Shown here: positions 25,541 through 38,552 of the stretch, piece by piece
Numbering within the stretch: position 1 is the stretch's first letter
How the letters are laid out: each line of letters opens with the position of its first letter
NCBI GenBank assembly: GCA_019637995.1
Contig: JAHBUQ010000001.1
Coordinates: 682,001-746,000, forward strand
From: Ignavibacteriota bacterium
Lineage (GTDB): Bacteria > Bacteroidota > Ignavibacteria > Kapaibacteriales > UBA2268
DNA: 64,000 bases
Direction of reading: 5' to 3'
Position numbers and translations under genes: made by a program
Notes under the pieces: generated by a model
Told to the model about the DNA's origin: nothing
Seen by the model: only the letters and a program-made list of their open reading frames with translations
Database searches by the model: none

Positions 25541-28500
25541 TTATCTGATAATCATAAATTTGCCATATACAGGCTCTACGTAAAAATTGCCGTTATACTT
25601 GATTCTGTAAACATAAATACCTGATGATACAGAACTTGAGCCCAAATATCTTCCATTCCATTGGAAGATATTTGTACCAAGACTTAATTCTTTGGAAATT
25701 TCATCTATTTTATTACCTGATAAATCATAAATTTCAAGCGTAGAATTGAGCCCATGGTCAGGTGCTTTGTAAGTCAAACTGAAATTAACAATGTCTCTCG
25801 CCGGATTTGGATACGTAAACACATCTTCTACGAAGGCATTCAACAGAGAAAGTCTGGCTAAAGTTGTTAAAGTATCACGGTTACCTTCATTATCGCGGGC
25901 ATAAACAATTATCGAAGCATCTTCGAATTGTAGTGTATCCGGTATGAATCTGAATATTGCTTTCAGACTTGTGCCATCATTAACAGGAATAAATTCACTG
26001 AATAATGTTCTCTGATAAGGATGTAAAAAACCGTTAATTCTGACAGTAAGTGAAGTTGAGTCAGTGATTGTCATTGGTGAGTTATCGTGCAACTCAACTT
26101 CAACAAGTGGCATTATACTGATATAATCACCATAGGTATGATATTTTCCGTCAATCTTAATTAAAATTCGGGGTTTGACTGTATCAGGTACTGTTCTTAA
26201 AGGAAGTGTAACTGAATTATTGAATGTAAAGAACTCAACTAATTTTTCATCATTGTCAATTTTTATGTCAATACTATTATTTCTATCAAGGAAATCAGTA
26301 TTAATATCTTGTATAAATTCAAATTTAGAATTAGGTTCGAGATTGAAAATGCTGTAGTATGTGAAATTATTATCAGTACCACCTCTCGAGACATTAACTG
26401 ATATATCTGCTGAATCCGTTTTTGTCCTTAGGGATATATTCTCAATTGCAAGATTTAACCCAACAGGTTCACCTTTTAGGATATCGTTTTTGTCAATATC
26501 AGTTTCCGATTGCAAAATAGCAAGTTCATCTGCAGGAACAAATTCCAAACGAATTGAACTGATGAAAGTTTCATCGGAATTTAATAAAGATTTGATATCA
26601 AACTTGGTCTGACTAAATTTCAGACTTGCAAATACTTCAGGATAAATTATTGCATTAATTTGACTCATATCAACATTACCGGGATTAACCTCATGAAGCA
26701 GTGTATCAATATTTCCTGTTTCAGAATTTCTTCCTGCTACGAAAAGTCCAATATTAGTACCATTGTCGGGATATTCAGATTCAATGGTGATTGAGTTCCA
26801 TTTTTTTGACTTATTGATAAAATCGCTCTTGTAATTTCCTTCCGGTGAAAATAATATCAGATTACCGCTAACAAATGCCGTATCTCCATTGAAATTAATT
26901 GCTTCAGGAATAGAACCAACCTCAGCTCCACGCCATCCAACCATTGCAAATGAAACTTGCTCACCGTTGAAATCAGCATCAAAATTCAAGGTATCAGCTA
27001 TCAAAGAGCCAAATGATTTGAAATAATAAAGCAGCGAATCAATTGAGCCGTGGTCTCCATCTTCGCCATACATTTTGTACAAATATGGAATCCTGAACGA
27101 TGATTTATTGGTTGCAATAAGAACGTAATCGTCGTCTTCAACAGAATCTCTTAAAAATTCTACAAGTTCGCGAGATATATCGTTGAACATGAAATTCTTT
27201 TCAGCCGGATATGGAGTACCTTCACCCCATGTATCAAAGCGTTTGTAACGAGTGATTAATTCTCCGCTACGGCTTTTTACAGTAGCTACATTAATTCCAA
27301 TATCATGCGGACCATCTACGAAAACTTCATCTCCTGCTTCGAGATTCACGTGTGCTTCTACCACAGGCTGTCCTTCCGGATTACCCGGTCTGTTGCCCTT
27401 TACACCCAAAGCTCTGAACGGTATTGTATCTCTTCGCATTGATAATTTTACTTGTCCGGCTGATTCGTCGAGCATCAGGTCATCAATTTTACCCGTGAGA
27501 AATTCCTCTTTGCTGCTTATGGATGCAGATACTTTGTTTTGTTCATAATGGATACTGGAATTGACAGGTATGCTTGTCCAGCCGCTCCATGTTGAATTTG
27601 TTTTGTTTATATATCTGACATGGAACCAATATGAATCTTCGCTTAAATTGAAGTCAGGCTTCCAGTCAATAAAATTCTCACTAATGATAACATCTGAATT
27701 GTCACGTGAATTAGAATGATGAATCACAGAATTTGTATCCGAATTACTTGTCAATAAGAAATAGTAATCAAATTCTGAGCCGTCTTTCAATGGATTGATT
27801 ACCCTGAATTTTGGTTTGTTTGAACTTATATTCCAATATGGTTGAGGGTCTAAAGCAAGCAAACTTTCTTTGAAAACATCAATATTGATAACTAACTTAT
27901 TGTTATCTTTAGTTAATTCAGAGATTTCATTGTCAGGGTCAATATCTATAGTTATTCGATGTCTTCCCGGCATATTTAAAATTTCAAAGCTGAAATTAAA
28001 ATCATCAAAATAACATAAATCTTCATAATCAATCCATATAGTATCGCGGGCTGAATTATTTTCTCTTACAATTCTTATTTTAAAAGGAGCATCAATTTTA
28101 TATCCATAGTTGTAAATTTTACCGGATATATTTACATAATTATCCTTATCAGTAAATCTTGAAGTACCATTTTCATTTTGAATCTGAATAGAATTATTAA
28201 ACAAATAGGCGTCAGGTTCAGTTCCTATTCTTGCTCTTACCAGCGGGTCACCAAGCAAAGCGAATGTATGAAGTGTACTGAACTGGTCATTAGACACAGG
28301 AGCCAGAACAGCTTTTCCATAAACCATTAAATCGCCAACAAATCTCATTTGTCTTGCCGGGTCAGCAATTGCTGCCATCATTCTGGTTGCTATTATGTTG
28401 TGCGAACCCACAAATCCGGTAAAACTACCACCTGTAGCAGTAACAAAACCTTTGTCTTTTTCCAGAATATACATTTCGTTACGACTTGCAACAAGTTGTG

Positions 28501-31420
28501 GCTCAGCAAAAGCACCAGTATTGCAGGAAATTGTAGTTAAATTGCCGTAACGCCCTTTATTATTCAACGAGCTTACATTCCAACCGTCAAGGTCGAATAT
28601 TTCCGCTGCTGCGTGACCTATGTAAATTGTCCACATAGCTCCTTTATTGATTTGCTCTCTTATCTCACCACCTTGTGATGAAGTGCTGGGTCCGTCAACA
28701 TCCTTAATCACACTGCTGTAAGTAGCACAGAGCGGGGGATTGAGCAGTCTGTCATGATAATGAAGTCCTATCATGCCTCGAAATCTGTTTATCTCAGCGA
28801 TATTATATCCACCGATTAAGAATAGAATATTCTTCATCCATGGAGATTCGGGAGTATTTTCATACTCTATGACTTTATCTATATAATTATTGGCTTGCTC
28901 TGAACTGTTTACTGGTAGTCTGCCGATGACAAATTCAGGTCTGACATCATCTTCACCATCAAGGCACGAATACCACCAGTCACTGACAGGGAATCCATAG
29001 GTAGGGATCCAGTTTGTACTATGCGAAATTTCGAGCAATTTTCTTGAATCCCAGCTTGCATCACCGATTAATAAGACATGAGTTATATCACGTTGCTCAT
29101 AGGTATATTTCAAAAAGTCTTTTATACCGTGCGGTGATTTTCTGCCGTATGAAAATTCTTTGTAGATATCATCTGCATCAACAACTTCAATTGACATTCC
29201 TAAAGTTTTTCTACGGTAATCTGCCAATCTTTCTGCTTCTTTAATGAAATTTCCATGACTAATAAAAACTACGTCTAATTTCTCACTGTTTCTTAGATTA
29301 GATTTGTTTACTCTGCTAATATTGACAGCATTAGAAATATTGTCAAATCCGCATAAAATGAATTTGCTCTCGGAATTTGACTCTACAGCTATTGAGTGAT
29401 TAAATCGCTTTCCGACGCTATGACTAATAAATTCAGTCATACCAACTTTTACATCAGAAATTCTTTCTATGAAGAAATCATTAGATTTTATGAAAGCCCC
29501 ACAATAAACTTTGCCGCTGGAAATATCACTAAATCTCTGACTGCCAAGCCCTTGAAGAGAAGTGAAATTGCTGCTTATTGTGCCGTCATTAATGATTAAT
29601 ACTGCGATTGAGGAGCCGTTTGATATAGAATTAATGTATTGATTATGCTCAATGTCTGACCCGGTGAAGTGGCGGTAATCATAGTTCCCGTCTGTTCTTT
29701 CAGCTAAAATATGAATTCCGGCTTGGCTTAAGTAAATCAAGCTGTCATTTATTCCTATTGAACCACTGACTGTGCCTTCAAGTGAACCGGAGACTCTGAA
29801 TAATGTTCCTTTATCAGTGCTGTTAAAAGTCGAAAATTTATTGTTTTCAATATCAAATCCGAGCAAGTTACTTGATCGAAATCCCGGGACGGTTAATTTC
29901 ATATCAGTATGTTTGCCTGAAAAGTCAAATGCATCATTTATCGAAGCCGGCTTTATGTTCCCAACTACTTTTATAAAATCAACATTTGTCCTTTCATTTG
30001 TTTCTATGTATATTTGTCGGGATTCGATTTCAATATTATTTAAACCATTGATAAAATTATTGCCATTTGATATATAATCAAGAGAATTCCAGTGAAAACC
30101 CATCAGCGAGTCCCTGTCCCTTTGATTGCCATTTATGTATAACCTCAAGTCGTAATATGTTGGTACGATTGGACGGTTTTCTCTTCTGATTGAGTCCTGA
30201 TTAGTTCGATACCATAGTGAAACAGTTATATTATCTTCAGGATTATCACTTGGGTCAATCATAATGTATTTTGAAAACTTGGGTTTAGTAATTGATGATT
30301 GAAAATTTTGAGGAGCAATAATACTCCAAAACCAACCTTCACCTCTTATTGTTCGTGTATCATAGAAAAAACTCTTTTCAATTGAACCATCAAAGTAATA
30401 GCTTTCAAATTCGGAGCCATGACTGTAAAATTTATCTTCTTCATAGTGACGGTCAATTTTTACAGAACTATATTCAATTACTTCATTACTGTTCGGATTC
30501 ATTTCGGAGAATCTAAATCCAATATTTGCTTCATCAAAAAATAGAAAGAATACTTCGTTATTTGTATAAGTATCAAACCATGTTGTATCGCCTGCGGGGC
30601 GTCTGCCGTAAAAAATGATTTCGTCATTGCCGGATATGATTCCGTCGTCATTCAGTATGATGTAAGGATAAGGCACTCCGCGATACAGCAGATGAATAAA
30701 TTGGCTGCTTTTTCCTGAGATTTGAGGTATTAAATCAATTATTTCCTGCATTTTGACTTTTACAATTTCATCGCTAGTTGTTTCTATTTTAATATAATCA
30801 ATTTCCGGATTGTACCAGTCAGATTTTAGCAAATCGGGTGATACTATTTTATTCTTGTCAGAATTTCTGGAGTCAATAAGTGTCTGAAGTTGAAGAGGAT
30901 TGATAATTTGCTCAAAAAATGGTGTTTCTCTTCCAAAATTTATCGTACTACTTTTTGGAATTTCATCTTTGTGTGTGATTGTAATTTCAAAAGTTTCTGC
31001 ATAAAATATGCTGTTTGTAATGCGGTCATATCTAAAAGGTGCAAAAATCAATTCGTTAATTTTGATACCTCTTATTTTGGAAGCATTGGATATAGTTTTG
31101 TAGTAGTTGTCTATATTGCTTGAATTAAATTCAAATGGAATTACTTTTTCGGAATTAATTTTGATATCATACTCGAAAATTTCATTTGAAGATGCAAATT
31201 GAAATGAAAAAGCATCGTTGTCTTTACCAAATGAGGATAAATATTTTTCAGAATCAGCAATTGTCAATATGCTGACACTATCTAAATGTTTCAATTCGGG
31301 TGAGTTATTTACTACTTTAATGCTTATTTTGTTGTTACTTTCATATATGTGAACATTAGACTTGAGTTCATTCAATAAGCCCAAAAAAAGTACAAACAAG
31401 AATATTCTTTTCAAAAGCAT
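25541..31420 (-). CDS. porU: Type IX secretion sortase PorU-like, C25 (gingipain-family) cysteine peptidase
   Basis: About 1959 residues from ATG 31420, which begins the signal peptide MLLKRIFLFVLFLGLL (a TTG 12 bases earlier is less likely). The C25 peptidase core lies around residues 700-1060, with VLLIGDASWD, FVIGRLPV, the catalytic His in YIGHAAAEIFD (about residue 936) and the catalytic Cys in TISCNTGAFAE (about 966). PorU cleaves the sorting domain of T9SS cargo at the cell surface and attaches the protein to a lipopolysaccharide. Like PorU it carries its own C-terminal sorting domain (VFTYPNPARDIVNFSL, SGIYVYRIKYNG). It is much longer than the roughly 1150 residues of Porphyromonas PorU, because a long beta-rich region lies between peptidase and tail. 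Both catalytic residues look intact. A C25 cargo protease rather than the sortase remains possible. Confidence 0.82.
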   Translation of the reverse strand: MLLKRIFLFVLFLGLLNELKSNVHIYESNNKISIKVVNNSPELKHLDSVSILTIADSEKYLSSFGKDNDAFSFQFASSNEIFEYDIKINSEKVIPFEFNSSNIDNYYKTISNASKIRGIKINELIFAPFRYDRITNSIFYAETFEITITHKDEIPKSSTINFGRETPFFEQIINPLQLQTLIDSRNSDKNKIVSPDLLKSDWYNPEIDYIKIETTSDEIVKVKMQEIIDLIPQISGKSSQFIHLLYRGVPYPYIILNDDGIISGNDEIIFYGRRPAGDTTWFDTYTNNEVFFLFFDEANIGFRFSEMNPNSNEVIEYSSVKIDRHYEEDKFYSHGSEFESYYFDGSIEKSFFYDTRTIRGEGWFWSIIAPQNFQSSITKPKFSKYIMIDPSDNPEDNITVSLWYRTNQDSIRRENRPIVPTYYDLRLYINGNQRDRDSLMGFHWNSLDYISNGNNFINGLNNIEIESRQIYIETNERTNVDFIKVVGNIKPASINDAFDFSGKHTDMKLTVPGFRSSNLLGFDIENNKFSTFNSTDKGTLFRVSGSLEGTVSGSIGINDSLIYLSQAGIHILAERTDGNYDYRHFTGSDIEHNQYINSISNGSSIAVLIINDGTISSNFTSLQGLGSQRFSDISSGKVYCGAFIKSNDFFIERISDVKVGMTEFISHSVGKRFNHSIAVESNSESKFILCGFDNISNAVNISRVNKSNLRNSEKLDVVFISHGNFIKEAERLADYRRKTLGMSIEVVDADDIYKEFSYGRKSPHGIKDFLKYTYEQRDITHVLLIGDASWDSRKLLEISHSTNWIPTYGFPVSDWWYSCLDGEDDVRPEFVIGRLPVNSSEQANNYIDKVIEYENTPESPWMKNILFLIGGYNIAEINRFRGMIGLHYHDRLLNPPLCATYSSVIKDVDGPSTSSQGGEIREQINKGAMWTIYIGHAAAEIFDLDGWNVSSLNNKGRYGNLTTISCNTGAFAEPQLVASRNEMYILEKDKGFVTATGGSFTGFVGSHNIIATRMMAAIADPARQMRFVGDLMVYGKAVLAPVSNDQFSTLHTFALLGDPLVRARIGTEPDAYLFNNSIQIQNENGTSRFTDKDNYVNISGKIYNYGYKIDAPFKIRIVRENNSARDTIWIDYEDLCYFDDFNFSFEILNMPGRHRITIDIDPDNEISELTKDNNKLVINIDVFKESLLALDPQPYWNISSNKPKFRVINPLKDGSEFDYYFLLTSNSDTNSVIHHSNSRDNSDVIISENFIDWKPDFNLSEDSYWFHVRYINKTNSTWSGWTSIPVNSSIHYEQNKVSASISSKEEFLTGKIDDLMLDESAGQVKLSMRRDTIPFRALGVKGNRPGNPEGQPVVEAHVNLEAGDEVFVDGPHDIGINVATVKSRSGELITRYKRFDTWGEGTPYPAEKNFMFNDISRELVEFLRDSVEDDDYVLIATNKSSFRIPYLYKMYGEDGDHGSIDSLLYYFKSFGSLIADTLNFDADFNGEQVSFAMVGWRGAEVGSIPEAINFNGDTAFVSGNLILFSPEGNYKSDFINKSKKWNSITIESEYPDNGTNIGLFVAGRNSETGNIDTLLHEVNPGNVDMSQINAIIYPEVFASLKFSQTKFDIKSLLNSDETFISSIRLEFVPADELAILQSETDIDKNDILKGEPVGLNLAIENISLRTKTDSADISVNVSRGGTDNNFTYYSIFNLEPNSKFEFIQDINTDFLDRNNSIDIKIDNDEKLVEFFTFNNSVTLPLRTVPDTVKPRILIKIDGKYHTYGDYISIMPLVEVELHDNSPMTITDSTSLTVRINGFLHPYQRTLFSEFIPVNDGTSLKAIFRFIPDTLQFEDASIIVYARDNEGNRDTLTTLARLSLLNAFVEDVFTYPNPARDIVNFSLTYKAPDHGLNSTLEIYDLSGNKIDEISKELSLGTNIFQWNGRYLGSSSVSSGIYVYRIKYNGNFYVEPVYGKFMIIR

Positions 31421-31699
31421 AATAAAATCCAATTTATTAATGACATGAATAAATTAAGTATTAAAATTACATTTATCACCCTGAAAGCTGATTAATAATA
31501 AATATAGAAACGCAAAAAGAACCAATATAGTTTTTTTGTTATATAATAATAACACATAATTCCAAAAAAAGTAACAAAAATTTTAAAATAATAATTATAC
31601 AGAGACTTTTGATTGCCAAAATTATAGTGAATTCATTTAATAATAAATTGGCATAATTTTTTCTATGATTAATTAGTTAAGACCATACAAAGCGTTGCT
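31421..31699. other. Divergent intergenic region, porU / flhF
   Basis: About 280 bases, over 75 percent A+T by eye, with long A and T runs. It must hold the promoters for porU (minus) and the flhF operon (plus). I see no clear TAnnTTTG element, no convincing sigma-54 site and no RNA gene. Confidence 0.5.
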
Positions 31700-32812
31700 A
31701 TGAAAATAAAAAAATTTATTGCTAAAGATATCAAGGAAGGTAAAAGGCTTGTCATCGAAGAACTCGGTGATGAGGCAGTTATTCTTTCGAATCGGGTCTT
31801 CAAAGACCCTGAAAATGGCGAGGAGCTTGTAGAAATCGTTGCTGCAATAGATGAGACTGTTGGGAAATCCAAGCCTTCAGAAAGTAAATCGGTCAAAGAT
31901 ACACAAATCAGTAATATCAGACAAATGAGTAAAGCCATTGGCTCTCACAGCAATGAATTAATCTTAAATGAAATTGATACTCTCAAGGATATGATAAATC
32001 AATTGGCTGATAGTATCAAATTCCGTAACATCGCATCACTGGGCAGCCATCTATCCAAACTTTACAAACGTCTCAGAAATCTTGAAATCAGTGATGACCA
32101 GTCCTTGAGAATAGTCAATCGAATATCGGAAAGCGGTGGCGTGAATGACTACAGAGAAGCATTGTATGAAGCCAGAAAAATTCTTGTTGAGGGAATAGAT
32201 ATTGGTAAATCACTGCAAAAAAGCGCGAAATCAAATATTGTCCTGTTCATAGGCACAACAGGAAGCGGTAAAACTGCTACACTTGTGAAACTTGCAATTC
32301 TCAGTAAAATTGTTCAAAATGCCAATAACCTGATTGTATCAGCTGATACTTACAAAGTCGGAGCATCTGAGCAATTGGAAACTTATGCATCAATAGCTTC
32401 TATTCCATTTAGAAGTGCATTTACAAATGATGAACTGAAAAAAATAATTGATGAGAATCAAAATAAAGATTTTATTTTTGTTGATACAACAGGGTTTTCT
32501 CAGAAAAACAATGAACAAATAGAGCAAATTCACGATTTAATCAATACAATTAATCCAAATGTAATTTATCTGACAATACCTGCAGTAGTTTCTGCAACTA
32601 CAGCTGATTCAATATTTAATGGTTTAAAGGGTATAACTATAGATAGTGTGATTCTAACTAAAGCAGACGAGAGTGAGTCCATTGCAAATATGATACAAAC
32701 AATTAAACCCAATAAAGTTCCAATTTCATACATCACAAATGGCATAAAAATACCTGAAGATATTCAACCTGCAGACAGAGTTTTGTTGGGCAAGTTGTCG
32801 CTTTTGGAATAA
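31700..32812 (+). CDS. flhF: Flagellar SRP-like GTPase FlhF
   Basis: A 370-residue protein of the SRP GTPase family. The N-terminal basic domain starts MKIKKFIAKDIKEGKRLVIE, as in FlhF, followed by a helical N domain and the G domain with P-loop GTTGSGKTATLVKLA, the SADTYKVGASEQLETYA motif and DTTGFSQKN. FlhF marks the site of flagellum assembly at the cell pole and works with FlhG. It heads a compact operon; the next gene starts 2 bases on. No flagellar structural genes are in view. Confidence 0.93.
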   Translation: MKIKKFIAKDIKEGKRLVIEELGDEAVILSNRVFKDPENGEELVEIVAAIDETVGKSKPSESKSVKDTQISNIRQMSKAIGSHSNELILNEIDTLKDMINQLADSIKFRNIASLGSHLSKLYKRLRNLEISDDQSLRIVNRISESGGVNDYREALYEARKILVEGIDIGKSLQKSAKSNIVLFIGTTGSGKTATLVKLAILSKIVQNANNLIVSADTYKVGASEQLETYASIASIPFRSAFTNDELKKIIDENQNKDFIFVDTTGFSQKNNEQIEQIHDLINTINPNVIYLTIPAVVSATTADSIFNGLKGITIDSVILTKADESESIANMIQTIKPNKVPISYITNGIKIPEDIQPADRVLLGKLSLLE

Positions 32813-32814
32813 AT

Positions 32815-33627
32815 ATGAAAAATCCGAAAACAAATATAAAAAGTACGGGAGTTATTACATTTTGCAGCGGCAAAGGTGGTGTCGGTAAAAGTGTCATAAC
32901 TGCAAATACTGCTTCAGCATTAGGAATGCATAGCAGTGTTTTGGTTCTTGATAGTGTTACAGATTTACCAAATCAGCATATTATTTTTGGTGTTGAACCT
33001 CCAATAAGACTGATGAGTGTATTGTCTGGTCATGTCATGGTTGAATCCGCAGCTTTTCAGATAAATAAAAATGTTAGTTTACTTGTTGATTCACCGCTTG
33101 AAGTGGGAGAAGAGAATAATTCAGTATTAGAATTGACTGATGTAGTCGCAGATTTGAAATTCAATTCAGAGTTTGATTACCTGATTATAGACACTCATTC
33201 AGGAATTTCCGATCAACTTGTTGAATTTTGTTATATGTCAGATTTAGTAGTTGTTTTAATCACAGATGAACCTACATCACTTTTAGATGCTTATGGATTG
33301 GTTAAAGTGTTGGTAAACTTCATTGACTCAAAAAAAATTGTTCTTCTTGTCAATAATGTTATTGACTCTGAAGATGCAGAAGAGATATCAGAAAAACTAA
33401 ATCTCGCTACCACGAAATTTTTGAATATGAATCTTGAGGTACTCGGATTTGTACCCTACAGCAGAAATGTAAGAAAATCTATACAGAGGCAGGAACTTTT
33501 GACCTTATCCAACAAGGATGATGATGCTACAAAAGCAATTATGAGTATAGCAAATAAAATTCATACAAAATATTTTAAGGATATAAACATTAATACAGTT
33601 GATTTCGAACTTATGAAGGCATTGTAA
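32815..33627 (+). CDS. flhG: MinD-like ATPase FlhG, regulator of flagellar number
   Basis: A 270-residue ParA/MinD ATPase with deviant Walker A motif SGKGGVGKSVITAN, switch region VLVLDSVTDLPNQH, and Walker B YLIIDTHSGIS. It lacks an obvious DQAxxLR activation helix at the N-terminus, which in FlhG stimulates FlhF. The C-terminus is amphipathic, as in MinD-type membrane-binding proteins. The gene lies directly after flhF and 2 bases before the next gene. The FlhG name rests on motifs plus context. Confidence 0.9.
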   Translation: MKNPKTNIKSTGVITFCSGKGGVGKSVITANTASALGMHSSVLVLDSVTDLPNQHIIFGVEPPIRLMSVLSGHVMVESAAFQINKNVSLLVDSPLEVGEENNSVLELTDVVADLKFNSEFDYLIIDTHSGISDQLVEFCYMSDLVVVLITDEPTSLLDAYGLVKVLVNFIDSKKIVLLVNNVIDSEDAEEISEKLNLATTKFLNMNLEVLGFVPYSRNVRKSIQRQELLTLSNKDDDATKAIMSIANKIHTKYFKDININTVDFELMKAL

Positions 33628-33629
33628 CT

Positions 33630-34169
33630 ATGGCATCAAAAGTTAAAGACGGCGACAAGAAAAAACTAAGCGATAGAGAGAAGAAATATCAAAAGAAATT
33701 AGCTCAGGAAAGAAAGAAACTTGACAAAATCATCAGTTTTCCTGGTAGGGCACTTCTTTTAATCTCTATTATTGCCGGTTTATTAATATTTACATATACA
33801 TACTTCGGAAGTAAAACTGAGGTATTATCAGCTTTGCTCACATCATTTTTTGGATTTTCTGTAGTATTTATCGGACTTGGTTTGGCAATGGTACTTTATT
33901 TTTTCTTCAAGTCAGAGCAAATCAAGAAAGAGTATGCTCGTCAACTTGAAATCGAACGTAAAGAACGCGAAATTGATGAGCAATCCAAATTCCGAAGGGA
34001 AATTGCAGAACTTGAATCAATCGAGAAAGAGCTTTTTGATAAAAAAAATAAACAATCAGGTACAAAATCGGAAACTGTCAAACAATCTAAATCTTCTTCA
34101 AAACCAACTATGACTGACGAAGAAGCTTATTTGGAAGAAGTATTAAACAGTAATATGAAAAATGTATAA
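33630..34169 (+). CDS. Small membrane protein with coiled-coil tail, in the flagellar regulator operon
   Basis: Unrecognised; 179 residues. A charged N-terminus (Lys-rich, about 1-35) is followed by two membrane segments (about 37-60 and 67-92) joined by a short loop. A long charged coiled-coil-like helix rich in Glu, Lys and Arg (about 93-150) and a Ser/Lys tail follow, ending EEAYLEEVLNSN. Both ends should be cytoplasmic. Lying between flhG and fliA, it may help anchor the module to the membrane (inference). Confidence 0.75.
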   Translation: MASKVKDGDKKKLSDREKKYQKKLAQERKKLDKIISFPGRALLLISIIAGLLIFTYTYFGSKTEVLSALLTSFFGFSVVFIGLGLAMVLYFFFKSEQIKKEYARQLEIERKEREIDEQSKFRREIAELESIEKELFDKKNKQSGTKSETVKQSKSSSKPTMTDEEAYLEEVLNSNMKNV

Positions 34170-34177
34170 GCTAATTA

Positions 34178-34957
34178 ATGCAATATAACAAGTTAGATAT
34201 TGATTCATTGTGGTATGAATATAAAAAGAATGGGAGTGATGAACTAAGGCAAACTCTCATTTTAAATTATGTATCTTTGATAAATTATACGATTAGCAAA
34301 ATGGTTTTGCCCGTCAATACAATTTTGGAAGAAAGTGATTTTGTTAATATCGGTGTACTTGGATTATATGAAGCAATAGAAAGATTTGAGCCTGACAGAC
34401 AAATTAAGTTTGAAACTTACGCAATTAAAAGGATTAAAGGAAAAATTCAAGATGAACTTCGTAAACTTGATTGGCTGTCACGAACTGCAAGAAAAAGAGC
34501 AACAGAATTCAAATCAATATCAGACACCATGCAGCAAAGACAGGAGAAAGGTGACACAGAACAGCAGGTATTGAATGAATTAAAAATCAGTCCTGAGCAA
34601 TACAGAAGTTATTTAATTGCTGCATCTGATGCAAAATCTTCTATCCCTATTTCGGATAGTTCACTAAAAATCATAAACGATGATGATGAGGAAGTGAATT
34701 TTCTTGAAGAAATTGCCGATGAATCTCAAGATTTTCTTAGCGAAATTCTTGAAGAAGAAAAGCAAAAATATTTGGCATCATCAATATCTAAACTTAAAGA
34801 GAATAAAAGAAACGTACTGGTTTTATATTATTTCGAAAATCTTAATTTCAAAGAGATTGGTCAGGTTTTAGGAGTATCTGAGAGTCGTATATCGCAGATT
34901 CACACTGAAACAATCAAGGAGTTGAAGTTAAAAATGAACAGGTATGAAGATGCTTAA
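34178..34957 (+). CDS. fliA: Flagellar sigma factor FliA (sigma-28)
   Basis: A 259-residue sigma-70 family protein lacking region 1, as expected for FliA/WhiG. Region 2 is ILNYVSLINYTISKM to DFVNIGVLGLYEAIERFEP and KFETYAIKRIKGKIQDELR. Region 3 follows with LDWLSRTARKRATEF. Region 4 is LVLYYFENLNFKEIGQVLGV then SESRISQIH, the helix-turn-helix. It should direct transcription of late flagellar genes. The stop overlaps the start of the HDOD gene by 14 bases. No FlgM anti-sigma gene is in the window. Confidence 0.93.
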   Translation: MQYNKLDIDSLWYEYKKNGSDELRQTLILNYVSLINYTISKMVLPVNTILEESDFVNIGVLGLYEAIERFEPDRQIKFETYAIKRIKGKIQDELRKLDWLSRTARKRATEFKSISDTMQQRQEKGDTEQQVLNELKISPEQYRSYLIAASDAKSSIPISDSSLKIINDDDEEVNFLEEIADESQDFLSEILEEEKQKYLASSISKLKENKRNVLVLYYFENLNFKEIGQVLGVSESRISQIHTETIKELKLKMNRYEDA

Positions 34958-35873
34958 TAAATCTGTTCTGCATAAACTCGAATCAATCAGAAATCTGCCT
35001 ACAATGCCCATCATAGTGTCGGAAGTTCTTTCAGCTGTGGATAATCCAAAATCGAGTGCTGCAAGTCTTGCAAAAATTATTGAGAAAGACCAGGCACTTA
35101 CTGCAAGAGTACTCAGAATCGCGAATTCGCCCTTTTACGGTTATACCCGTAAAATATCCACGATAGATTTAGCTATTGTAATTATGGGCTTTAATACATT
35201 GAAGGAAATAGTGCTTAGTATTGTCATACAAAGATTCTTTTCAAAAGTCAATACTAACGTATTCAATCTCAAAGATTTTTGGCAATATGGTTTGTTCTCT
35301 GGCTCAGCAGCGAGACTTTTATCTCGAAAATTAGGTTATAAATTAGCCGGAGAAGCATTTGTAGCCGGACTAATGCATGATATAGGAGTTTTAATCATAG
35401 CAGAATACTTTACAACCAAATTCAAAGAAATTAAACAATATATAGCTACACATAAAGTAAACTTACTTGATGCAGAGCAGGCGGTGCTTGGATGCACACA
35501 TTCTGAAATCGGTGCTTGGATAGCTGATAAATGGAATCTTCCGGACAAAATGGTTAAAGCAATTCAAAATCATCATATTAATTTCTCTTATTTCAGTAAG
35601 AATGCAGGTGCCGGAATGGATGATGATATTCTCAGTGAAATAGACCAGCCTCTTACAGCAATGGTATCACTTGCGGAATGGTTTGCTCAGATTCTTGGTT
35701 TCAAAAACTGGATTGATGAACCGACAACTCCGGAATACTATTTATCATCTGAAGTATTCGGAGATTTTTCGATTAATGATATAATGGATTCGGAAAGTGC
35801 AATGTTTGCACTTAGAACTGAGTTATTGGATGAGTTTGCAAAAGCTAATATTTTCAATGAATTAAATCTTTAA
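34944..35873 (+). CDS. HDOD-domain signalling protein
   Basis: A 309-residue protein with an HDOD domain over about residues 8-205 (NLPTMPIIVSEVLSAVDNP, KDQALTARVLRIANSPFYG, LMHDIGVLIIAEYF). HDOD proteins are HD-fold regulators that generally lack phosphodiesterase activity and act in signalling, often in chemotaxis, motility and cyclic-di-GMP pathways. The sequence retains one His-Asp pair (MHDIG) but not a full HD-GYP set. It starts inside the 3' end of fliA and is followed 4 bases later by the kinase-like gene. Confidence 0.88.
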   Translation: MKMLNKSVLHKLESIRNLPTMPIIVSEVLSAVDNPKSSAASLAKIIEKDQALTARVLRIANSPFYGYTRKISTIDLAIVIMGFNTLKEIVLSIVIQRFFSKVNTNVFNLKDFWQYGLFSGSAARLLSRKLGYKLAGEAFVAGLMHDIGVLIIAEYFTTKFKEIKQYIATHKVNLLDAEQAVLGCTHSEIGAWIADKWNLPDKMVKAIQNHHINFSYFSKNAGAGMDDDILSEIDQPLTAMVSLAEWFAQILGFKNWIDEPTTPEYYLSSEVFGDFSINDIMDSESAMFALRTELLDEFAKANIFNELNL

Positions 35874-35877
35874 TCTT

Positions 35878-37071
35878 ATGAATAATCAGACAGTAAATAT
35901 TAAAAATTACATAGAAGAATTGAATAAATGCAGCAGCGTTAATTCGATTAATAATGTGATTTTTGAAGTTTTAAAAGATGAATTTGCGATAATCGAATCT
36001 GTAATCATTGAAGTTGATTCAAATTCCAACATCATTACCAGTAATTTGAATGAAGAGTCTGCTTTAAGTGAACGAATTAAATACCTGATAGAAGAAGGGA
36101 TTATAGATTGGGCTCTGCAAACCGGTGAGGCGCAGATTATTATGGATTTGCAGTCTCAGCTGAAAGGCATTTCGAGAAATATTATTATGGCTCCATTTGT
36201 TTATATCAATGATGTTATAGCAATATTTATTGCTTTTACAGAGAAAAATAAAGATGATATTGATAATATATTAAACAAAATTGTTCATGAAGTAATAAGT
36301 ATAACAGCTTTGAAAATAAAGTTGATACAACAGAGTTTCAAGGTTAAAAAAATTAACAGCCGATTGAATGAACTGAACGAAAGATTAATTAATTCTCTGC
36401 CAATGACTACATTTGGGGAAATATCTCTTACAGTTTTAAAAGAGGCAACTCTGCCGCTTCAGATAATCAATTCTAATGTGGAATTAATTGAAAGTGGTGT
36501 CGGTAATACAGCCCGTCGCTTAGAAATAATCAAACAACAAACAAAATCTATAAGTGAAATTATAAATCTTCTAACTGAAATTTCACTCGATTCCTCTAAA
36601 TCTGAGCCCGAAATATTTAGTTTGAGCGAATTATTTGATGAAATCTCAAGCGTAACAGCCTCTCAAATTAAAACCGCGGGAATGAAACTCTACATTGAAG
36701 TAGAAAACGAAAAATTGAGCATTAAAGCCATTAAAACTCAACTCGAGTATTCACTTATTCATATTATTTTGTTTTTCTTAACAACTGAAATTGAATCAGA
36801 TACAATTTATTTGACCGCTAATATTCATAACCCTAGAACTATCGTAATTTCGGTAAAAAGTGATGACAGTATTTTTGATGCTAATAATTTTGAGAAATTT
36901 GTTGAATCAATCAAGCAAATAAGTAAATTTGATAGAATGGTAAATGGGTTTTATTCTGCAAAAAATATTATAAAAAATAGTGGTGGCAAAATTGAATGTC
37001 TTTCAAAATCCGGCGAAGGAACGATTTTTAGAATTTATTTTCCATCAGTAAAAAATATTAAAGTGGATTGA
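35878..37071 (+). CDS. Histidine-kinase-like protein without the phospho-accepting His (GAF-like + degenerate HisKA/HATPase)
   Basis: A 397-residue cytoplasmic protein. Residues about 10-150 look like a GAF-type sensor domain. A linker helix is followed by an H-box-like helix, FGEISLTVLKEATLPLQII, then NSNVELIE, where the usual AHE-xNPL has become LKEATLPL: Lys188 stands in the His position. The ATPase domain keeps the final G2-like part (GFYSAKNIIKNSGGKI, GEGTIFRIYFP), but the N-box Asn is not seen in YSLIHIILFFLTTEI. It therefore looks unable to autophosphorylate and may act as a binding partner or pseudokinase. It sits between the HDOD gene and a TPR membrane protein, and the next start overlaps its stop. 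Confidence 0.78.
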   Translation: MNNQTVNIKNYIEELNKCSSVNSINNVIFEVLKDEFAIIESVIIEVDSNSNIITSNLNEESALSERIKYLIEEGIIDWALQTGEAQIIMDLQSQLKGISRNIIMAPFVYINDVIAIFIAFTEKNKDDIDNILNKIVHEVISITALKIKLIQQSFKVKKINSRLNELNERLINSLPMTTFGEISLTVLKEATLPLQIINSNVELIESGVGNTARRLEIIKQQTKSISEIINLLTEISLDSSKSEPEIFSLSELFDEISSVTASQIKTAGMKLYIEVENEKLSIKAIKTQLEYSLIHIILFFLTTEIESDTIYLTANIHNPRTIVISVKSDDSIFDANNFEKFVESIKQISKFDRMVNGFYSAKNIIKNSGGKIECLSKSGEGTIFRIYFPSVKNIKVD

Positions 37072-38552
37072 ATTTATTGTATAAATTATTTAATATATTA
37101 ATAATTATAATGTTTATAACTTCTGCGAAAGTACTTTATAGCGCAGAAATTAAGTCCATTAGTATCAATCCGCTGAATCGTGCAATAATTCAATTTGATA
37201 CATTACCTGATAATATAAATTCTCATTTATCTGATAATAAAACATTGATAAAAATTGAGTTAGACGCTGTTAGATACGATGAGAAGTTAAGTCAGATTAG
37301 CGGACTTGGTATAATTTCTGATGTGTATCTCAGAAATGAAAACGGGAAAACTATTGTTAATATTAAAACAAAAGATAAACGCGGTTATACTGTTTCCAAA
37401 AGAGCTTTTACCGACCGAATTTTTATTGATGTTTTTCAATGGGATATGCTAAGTATTGAAGAAGAAAATTTTAGAATGGGTTTACTGGCTTATGAGGATA
37501 AAATACTCAATGAGGCATTAAGAAATTTTTATCAGGCTGCAAAAAATGGAGTTTATGAATCAGTTTTCAATTTAGGAAATTGTTATTTTGAAACAGGTTA
37601 CACATACGAAGCATACAAATCCTATGAATTCGCTTATAATTTTGACTCCACTAATATTGATGCACTCGCCGGTCTTGCTGTATCTCTATCGAAACTTGGA
37701 ATGAACAATGAGTCAAAATATTTCTCTGAATTGTTCAAAATGCAGACAGGTAAAGATGTTTCTGCAGTATTTTCAGTGAGTGAAACATTATTGGATAGTA
37801 ATCTATTGGATTTAAGTTTTTTAAATAAGATTAATTTTGACAGTTTAAATATAACTACAAAAGACTCAATTACTGTTTTGGACAGCACATTTTCAGATAT
37901 TGAAATTTCACTTCAGGACAGTACAAGCCATAGTGAGCAAAGCAACAGTCTTTTTTCAGATATTAAAGAATATATTTATTATGCATTAGTGATTGTGGGC
38001 GGTACATTTATTGCATTAATATTTTATTATTTCAAATGGAGAAGGACTCAGATTGAAAGCAGAAGCTCCAAGCCTGTTGAAAAATTTGAAGATAAGCTAA
38101 AAGAAGCAACTGCTAAGGTGAACCCTAATATTCTGAATAATAAATATTCCTCTGTAAGTGTTAATACTAAATCTGATAACAAGGAAAATGAGAATTCAAA
38201 TCCAGAAAATCAGTCTGGCGTCATAAATGATTACAAAATAAATAAATTAGGCGATGTCATTGAATCAATAACCGGCAAACCTGCAGAGAGCTATAAAAAG
38301 TCGGAAAGTCAGAGTAATGTCAACGCTAAACTGCAACTTGCAATGCACCTTGCAGAAGAACAAAGAAGAATTAAGACTCAAAATATTGAAAGTTTGAATA
38401 GCACTTCAATTCCCAATGATAAGAAAAAACTATCAGAGATTTCTAAAAAGCTTGGTATTGAAAAGGGTGGACTTGAAACAAAACTTGCTATGGAAAAATT
38501 AATGAAGGATAAAAATCTTTTGAAAAAGCTTAGTGAAAAATTCGGACTTTGA
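37068..38552 (+). CDS. Membrane TPR protein with AMIN-like N-terminal domain
   Basis: A 494-residue protein starting at TTG 37068, which overlaps the previous stop. It has a signal peptide or anchor (ends VLYSAE). A beta-rich region about residues 27-125 (LGIISDVYLRN, KTIVNIKT, DRIFIDVFQW) resembles AMIN domains that bind cell wall or outer-membrane partners. Two or three TPR-like helical pairs follow (about 135-225). A membrane segment (about 303-323) and a long charged cytoplasmic tail end the protein. It could link the periplasm to the cytoplasmic regulators of the same operon (inference). The domain calls are from patterns only. Confidence 0.65.
   Translation: MNLLYKLFNILIIIMFITSAKVLYSAEIKSISINPLNRAIIQFDTLPDNINSHLSDNKTLIKIELDAVRYDEKLSQISGLGIISDVYLRNENGKTIVNIKTKDKRGYTVSKRAFTDRIFIDVFQWDMLSIEEENFRMGLLAYEDKILNEALRNFYQAAKNGVYESVFNLGNCYFETGYTYEAYKSYEFAYNFDSTNIDALAGLAVSLSKLGMNNESKYFSELFKMQTGKDVSAVFSVSETLLDSNLLDLSFLNKINFDSLNITTKDSITVLDSTFSDIEISLQDSTSHSEQSNSLFSDIKEYIYYALVIVGGTFIALIFYYFKWRRTQIESRSSKPVEKFEDKLKEATAKVNPNILNNKYSSVSVNTKSDNKENENSNPENQSGVINDYKINKLGDVIESITGKPAESYKKSESQSNVNAKLQLAMHLAEEQRRIKTQNIESLNSTSIPNDKKKLSEISKKLGIEKGGLETKLAMEKLMKDKNLLKKLSEKFGL

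Follow-up and report, generated by a model that had tools for sequence, protein, structure and literature searches.

The locus analysed here lies in a flagellar regulator operon and encodes a protein that resembles a sensor histidine kinase, with lysine at the place of the phospho-accepting histidine. The question is whether this gene is a kinase struck by a local mutation or belongs to a lineage in which the kinase fold has been kept and catalysis abandoned, and, in the latter case, what such a protein may do next to genes for flagellar regulators.

Gene Content of the Flagellar Operon

In the window (the whole stretch of 64,000 nucleotides analysed), the genes of the operon follow the order flhF-flhG-orfX-fliA-HDOD-kinase-membrane protein (Table 1). 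The kinase gene follows the HDOD gene at a distance of 4 bases and runs into the beginning of the next ORF. The earlier note had placed it between an HDOD gene and an "AMIN/TPR" gene. The HDOD assignment is clear and a weak TPR match was found downstream, but the AMIN part was not recovered, with no Pfam match to it here or in the orthologues scanned. By eye, the downstream product carries a signal peptide and a TPR-like part, together with a single transmembrane helix and a tail in the cytoplasm, and it recalls a polar hub protein beside flhF/flhG. An apparent fusion of the kinase to this membrane protein in genome G024 was rejected, since the junction consists of masked or unknown letters. 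No Pfam family matched orfX above the cut-off. On the minus strand, at 25541-31432, a 1963-aa ORF was noticed, the tail of which resembles, by eye, a type IX secretion sorting signal.

Table 1. Features of the flagellar operon in the window.
Feature	Position	Strand	Basis and remarks
flhF (SRP54-type GTPase)	31700..32812	+	Pfam SRP54, E 1.9e-32
flhG (ParA/MinD-type ATPase)	32815..33627	+	Pfam ParA/CbiA, gene order
orfX, small membrane protein, function not assigned	33630..34169	+	Lies between flhG and fliA in most operons of the family
fliA (sigma-28)	34178..34957	+	Pfam sigma-70 r2/r4; NCBIfam FliA_WhiG above cut-off
HDOD gene, proposed partner	34944..35873	+	Pfam HDOD, E 5.4e-62
Putative pseudo-histidine-kinase gene	35878..37071	+	ATG start, 397 aa; ORF, alignments, AlphaFold2 model, PDB DHp-CA matches
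Domains of the 397-aa product			GAF-like ~21-122, long signalling helix, DHp 179-240 (Lys188 = phospho-site), degenerate CA 245-390
Lys188 codon, place of the phospho-accepting His	36439..36441	+	Sequence and alignment with 18 His-bearing orthologues
Membrane-protein gene, weak TPR match	37068..38552	+	Next in operon after kinase gene

Catalytic Residues and Domains of the Window Protein

The GEIS motif and PLQIINSNVELI, reported earlier around the phospho-site, are both present, and alignment with the orthologues confirms that Lys188 stands at the His of their HEINNPLQI motif. The N-box Asn, which had been described as not visible, is indeed gone, both positions being His/Phe. The D-box Asp/Gly/Gly reads S/D/I, the F-box Phe is replaced with Val and the G2 glycines appear as R/V/G, two of the three being replaced. 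The statement that the ATP lid is kept was therefore wrong; only the last strands survive, including the C-terminal G-x-G-T-x-F strand, the second Gly of which (residue 381) is present in 30 of 32 family members.

Profile searches gave a sub-threshold Pfam match to HATPase_c (E 4.7e-4; 21 bits, with the cut-off at 26.4) and weak matches to HisKA (E 0.12) and GAF_2 (E 0.24). The GAF domain proposed to precede the kinase part is clear in intact orthologues (Pfam E 1.5e-9 and 2.8e-11), while in the window protein it has just this weak match. The best NCBIfam match was AtoS, with E 1.5e-8 for the window protein and 4.9e-60 for an intact orthologue; the former scores far below all curated cut-offs. 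Alignments and profiles strongly support the reading of the window protein as a histidine-kinase fold with its catalytic residues lost, that is, as kinase-dead.

The AlphaFold2 model, built with an alignment of 45 orthologues (mean pLDDT 87.3, pTM 0.56), consists of a GAF-like part, a long helix, DHp and CA, with no membrane segment. Residues 21-122 show an alpha/beta pattern at the GAF-like position, and both the DHp helical hairpin and the CA alpha/beta sandwich are present. Comparison with the PDB gave matches to histidine kinases and DivL, chiefly across residues 169-394, and says little on the GAF part; for the CA part, comparison with several kinases gave Z ~18 and an rmsd of 2.3-2.6. 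The Melioribacter-type protein, for which no Pfam match was obtained at E 0.001, yielded a model (mean pLDDT 78) whose PDB matches are histidine kinases, DivL, RetS and NifL. The kinase fold is thus predicted to be kept in the dead forms.

Orthologues in the Family and Order of the Window Genome

Family f1 (Candidatus Kapabacteria-type MAGs) comprises 54 genomes, and an orthologue was found in 32 of them, a count in which absences can be assembly gaps because the named records are nearly all MAGs. A search with the window protein gave 27 of these orthologues and a profile run on operon regions added five (G016, G019, G032, G048 and G053). A profile search of the family returned no further full-length orthologue: the same 32 score at least 224 bits, and the other matches, among the matches listed, score at most 191 bits and start at profile position 164 or later, as expected of paralogous kinases. 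The window protein as the query in the first genome-contig scan had found no relative.

The phospho-site residue in the family is K in 10 members, E in 5, N and R in 4 each, Q and D in 3 each, S in 2 and W in 1; His is found in 0 of 32. The loss of His is accordingly clade-wide and not local, which rules out a mutation or sequencing error at Lys188. The lysine, which the earlier note proposed to check for constancy, is found in fewer than a third of the members. A phospho-His in another register is ruled out as well, since in every DHp column His is limited to at most 3 of the 32. In families f3, f4, f5, f8, f9 and f10 of the same order, the orthologues are intact, with His and the N-box Asn in 18 of 18. 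Some nucleotide-binding residues are still found among the 32 family members (N-box Asn in 13, D-box Asp in 24, two of the G2 glycines in 11 and 12), and ATP binding may persist where they are kept.

Counts for Kapabacteria and for the class survey below were taken by family label. Alignment A1 contains 45 rows of the 50 orthologues and leaves out G024, G025, G056, G061 and G072. The loci with L numbers include 24 rows with His, 21 without it and 2 unreadable ones, and L130 and L157 are truncated before the site; the rows were grouped by His state before motifs were counted, so their His counts hold by construction. This set excludes 17 loci repeating contigs of G genomes and kinases not adjoining an HDOD gene.

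A Second Loss in Ignavibacteriales

The named genomes were scanned with an HDOD alignment and the best 80 loci were used. Among these loci and the family, the order FliA-HDOD-kinase, mostly after FlhF-FlhG, occurs in Kapabacteria, Kryptonia, Latescibacterota, Fibrobacterota and Ignavibacteriales MAGs, and many kinases at the best 80 loci carry HEINNP or HEIKNP. The kinases of Ignavibacteriales/Melioribacteraceae have an acidic or other residue for His, typically in the form GI-[VIL]-E-[DE]-I, and most of these loci contain two HDOD genes in a row. The Melioribacter roseus orthologue was read from a MAG of that name (L176); M. roseus itself is a motile isolate (PMC3534657).

In the class survey, matches with an E value no higher than 1e-35 were obtained in 79 of 391 genomes. 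The neighbouring families f12, f16, f21 and f24 keep His, Asn, Asp and Gly in 16 of 16. In f18, f28 and f30, where the site was readable in 62 of 63 proteins, His was found in 2, Glu in 48 and Glu or Asp in 51; the N-box Asn was found in 0 of 61 readable cases.

A tree of FlhF+FlhG+FliA was built with 53 rows, 33 of them without His, leaving out the near-copies G025, G038 and L134 and rows without FlhF, FlhG and FliA. The His trait needs two changes on this tree, and the starred branches force two. A single clade of His-less rows is rejected (AU p 0.000142), in a test that shares the long-branch pull of its model and with odd composition in 24 tree rows. Since functional histidine kinases in general carry His and the tree rejects one origin, the simple reading is that the phospho-His was lost twice independently, in the family of the window and in f18/f28/f30.

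Several single loci deserve mention. His at the phospho-site was seen in one Ignavibacteriales genus (G253 and G311, loci L224 and L222), and the N-box is lost there. In L239 (G376), from the genus of the Melioribacter query, the copy seems broken (124 residues, 90% identity, two stops). At L151:1585-3003, the kinase next to the HDOD gene still carries HEINNP and its CA domain is degenerate; decay here ran in the opposite order.

Most of what is known of pseudo-histidine-kinases comes from isolated cases. The syntenic gene studied here provides living intermediates, from catalytically complete relatives through His-less proteins with nucleotide motifs to forms without either, with two independent conversions in distinct clades. 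Such a series lets one ask what sensor kinases do besides phosphorylate.

Selection and Domain Conservation

The frames are open across the family. In seven close pairs of dead genes, dN/dS was 0.031-0.131, with 0.04-0.13 for the CA domain, and in intact genes it was 0.047-0.066 (computable for 4 of 5 pairs); these estimates are rough because some dS values exceed 1. Judging by these ratios, the dead kinase genes are under purifying selection.

Mean pair identities of GAF, DHp and CA were 0.230, 0.279 and 0.215 in the family (122 pairs) and 0.289, 0.378 and 0.446 in His-type kinases (29 pairs), both at a FliA identity of 0.44-0.52. By this measure, the CA domain is the part released from constraint, being half as conserved as in His-type kinases, and GAF is the least released.

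Association with the HDOD Gene and Other Candidate Partners

With orthologues defined by E below 1e-70, the HDOD gene was found in 31 of 54 family genomes. HDOD and kinase genes occur together in 29 genomes, HDOD only in 2 (G037, and G043, where the contig ends), kinase only in 3 (G005, G007 and G015) and neither in 20 (Fisher p 1.1e-9); among the 49 FlhA-bearing family genomes the association has a Fisher p of 5.9e-8. Six genomes, G006, G014, G022, G036, G044 and G050 (L086, L089, L101, L102, L103 and L105), lack both the HDOD and the kinase gene, and the membrane-protein gene comes immediately after fliA. Corrected for kinship, the link comes down to 2 independent pairs on well-supported branches, or 4 to 5 if all branches are used, and numbers this small do not reach significance. 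Because relatedness explains much of the count and independent pairs are few, the finding that the kinase gene tracks the upstream HDOD gene is suggestive. The co-loss points first to the HDOD protein as the most likely partner. HDOD proteins GsmR and SadB affect flagellar genes in other bacteria, and the part of PMC6543031 available describes no kinase-like partner for them.

Sigma-54 activators were found in 24 of 24 genomes searched and rpoN in 119 of 122. Neither separates intact from dead clades, so that the loss of a partner regulator alongside could not be demonstrated. FlgM was found above the Pfam cut-off in 0 of 30 genomes searched, 6 of which gave weak matches; the FlgM family is short and divergent, so this count carries no inference of absence.

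Proposed Mechanism and Alternatives

With modest confidence, we favour the reading that the window protein is a pseudo-histidine-kinase working as a non-catalytic sensor or adaptor via protein contact, for which the HDOD protein is the most likely partner. This soluble protein of GAF-DHp-CA architecture would descend from an ordinary histidine kinase of the AtoS/ZraS type that occupied the same place in the operon. The phospho-His was lost clade-wide, and the nucleotide-binding motifs to degrees differing between genera. In the present form, the GAF domain may respond to a signal or partner and so set the conformation of the DHp/CA body. This state would be handed on through direct contact, the HDOD protein encoded just upstream being the most likely recipient, and would result in a tuning of flagellar gene expression or assembly (FliA, FlhF/FlhG). 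Because the residues appear to have been lost at least twice while the gene stays in place and under selection, the protein probably acts by contact and not by phosphorylation. In this scheme we infer the absence of kinase activity in vitro, the HDOD binding, the flagellar output and any signal; it is operon position that speaks for control of FliA or FlhFG by the kinase-like protein.

These observations suggest that flagellar control in these phyla involves an HDOD-kinase module. No earlier account of such a module was found in the open-access literature searched (HDOD with FlhF, fliA and motility; Kapabacteria/Ignavibacteria flagella). Compared with AtoS/ZraS-type kinases (HisKA + HATPase_c), the window protein shares the fold and the DHp-CA order but is without the phospho-His and the N-, D- and F-box residues.

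A possible, rather unlikely alternative is that the protein binds a response regulator at the DHp surface and reads the phosphorylation state set by another kinase. DivL of Caulobacter works in that way, according to PMC4211667, and like the window protein it has a replaced His in a retained DHp-CA fold; its chain 4q20 is among the closest structures to the window model (Z 18.3). Furthermore, the hairpin and the stretch following the phospho-site are recognisable in live and dead Kapabacteria forms (G207, G209, R213, R214, I217 and I218), R214 being present in 25 of 25 family members (7 near-copies removed) and 15 of 18 His-type proteins. However, the Ignavibacteriales pseudokinases do not share this hairpin motif. 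Moreover, a motif scan of the fetched regions revealed no response-regulator gene near intact or dead copies, save a single REC-like ORF in G065 and another in G024, and none was among the nine Pfam-scanned neighbours of the G062 kinase. DivL also carries PAS domains, not GAF as here, and, as far as the same source goes, keeps a conserved Tyr and the N, G1, F and G2 boxes, whereas the window family has a variable residue (no Tyr, with Lys in the window protein and K/E/N/R/Q/D/S/W in the family) and lost boxes.

Phosphotransfer may, more speculatively, never have been the chief output, so that the catalytic parts could be dropped twice. HDOD protein and kinase body would then form a module holding or releasing FliA (or FlhF/FlhG), possibly replacing FlgM, and the Glu in Ignavibacteriales would be a built-in mimic of the phosphorylated state; as a whole, this proposal is unlikely. 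A GHKL anti-sigma factor of the SpoIIAB type binds a sigma factor; for such a role of the window protein, what could be adduced is its place near fliA and the count of no FlgM above the Pfam cut-off in the 30 genomes. In the NifL-NifA system, the kinase-like protein NifL, which carries PAS domains, controls an AAA+ activator by direct binding; Foldseek matched the Ignavibacteriales model to NifL (9qq6). ChrS, too, reportedly has a pseudokinase version.

It is distinctly improbable that the window protein enters mixed complexes with a paralogous kinase that is active, altering the activity of the latter. The precedent is RocA of Streptococcus, a pseudokinase that binds CovS (PMC7028121) and acts without catalysis, as proposed for the window protein. 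The window genome does have kinase paralogues, for example at G000:C3:438045-438764, adjoining a sigma-54 activator at C3:436996, but they share 24-28% identity over the kinase part, which is far for mixed dimers, and nothing links them to the flagellar operon. In addition, RocA is membrane-bound according to the same text, whereas the window protein adjoins HDOD and FliA and its model lacks a membrane segment. The AtoS-like kinase match and sigma-54 activator of this pair (G000:C3:436996-438764, L108) have similar counterparts in several of these genomes, and the pair is itself a possible candidate flagellar regulator.

Continued catalysis, with another residue or the domain of a partner taking over phosphorylation, is very unlikely: an acidic residue does stand at the site in 8 of 32 family members and 51 of 62 Ignavibacteriales proteins, and partial nucleotide motifs are found in some genera, but the site residue drifts among 8 kinds in the 32, the window protein has lost its N-, D- and F-box residues and the DHp offers no alternative His column. 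Decay of a gene without function, which the low identity between genera (mostly 23-30%) and the 22 of 54 family genomes in which no orthologue was found might suggest, is contradicted by the open frames, the dN/dS of 0.03-0.13 and the conserved operon slot, and with the Ignavibacteriales form also conserved it can be set aside as extremely improbable.
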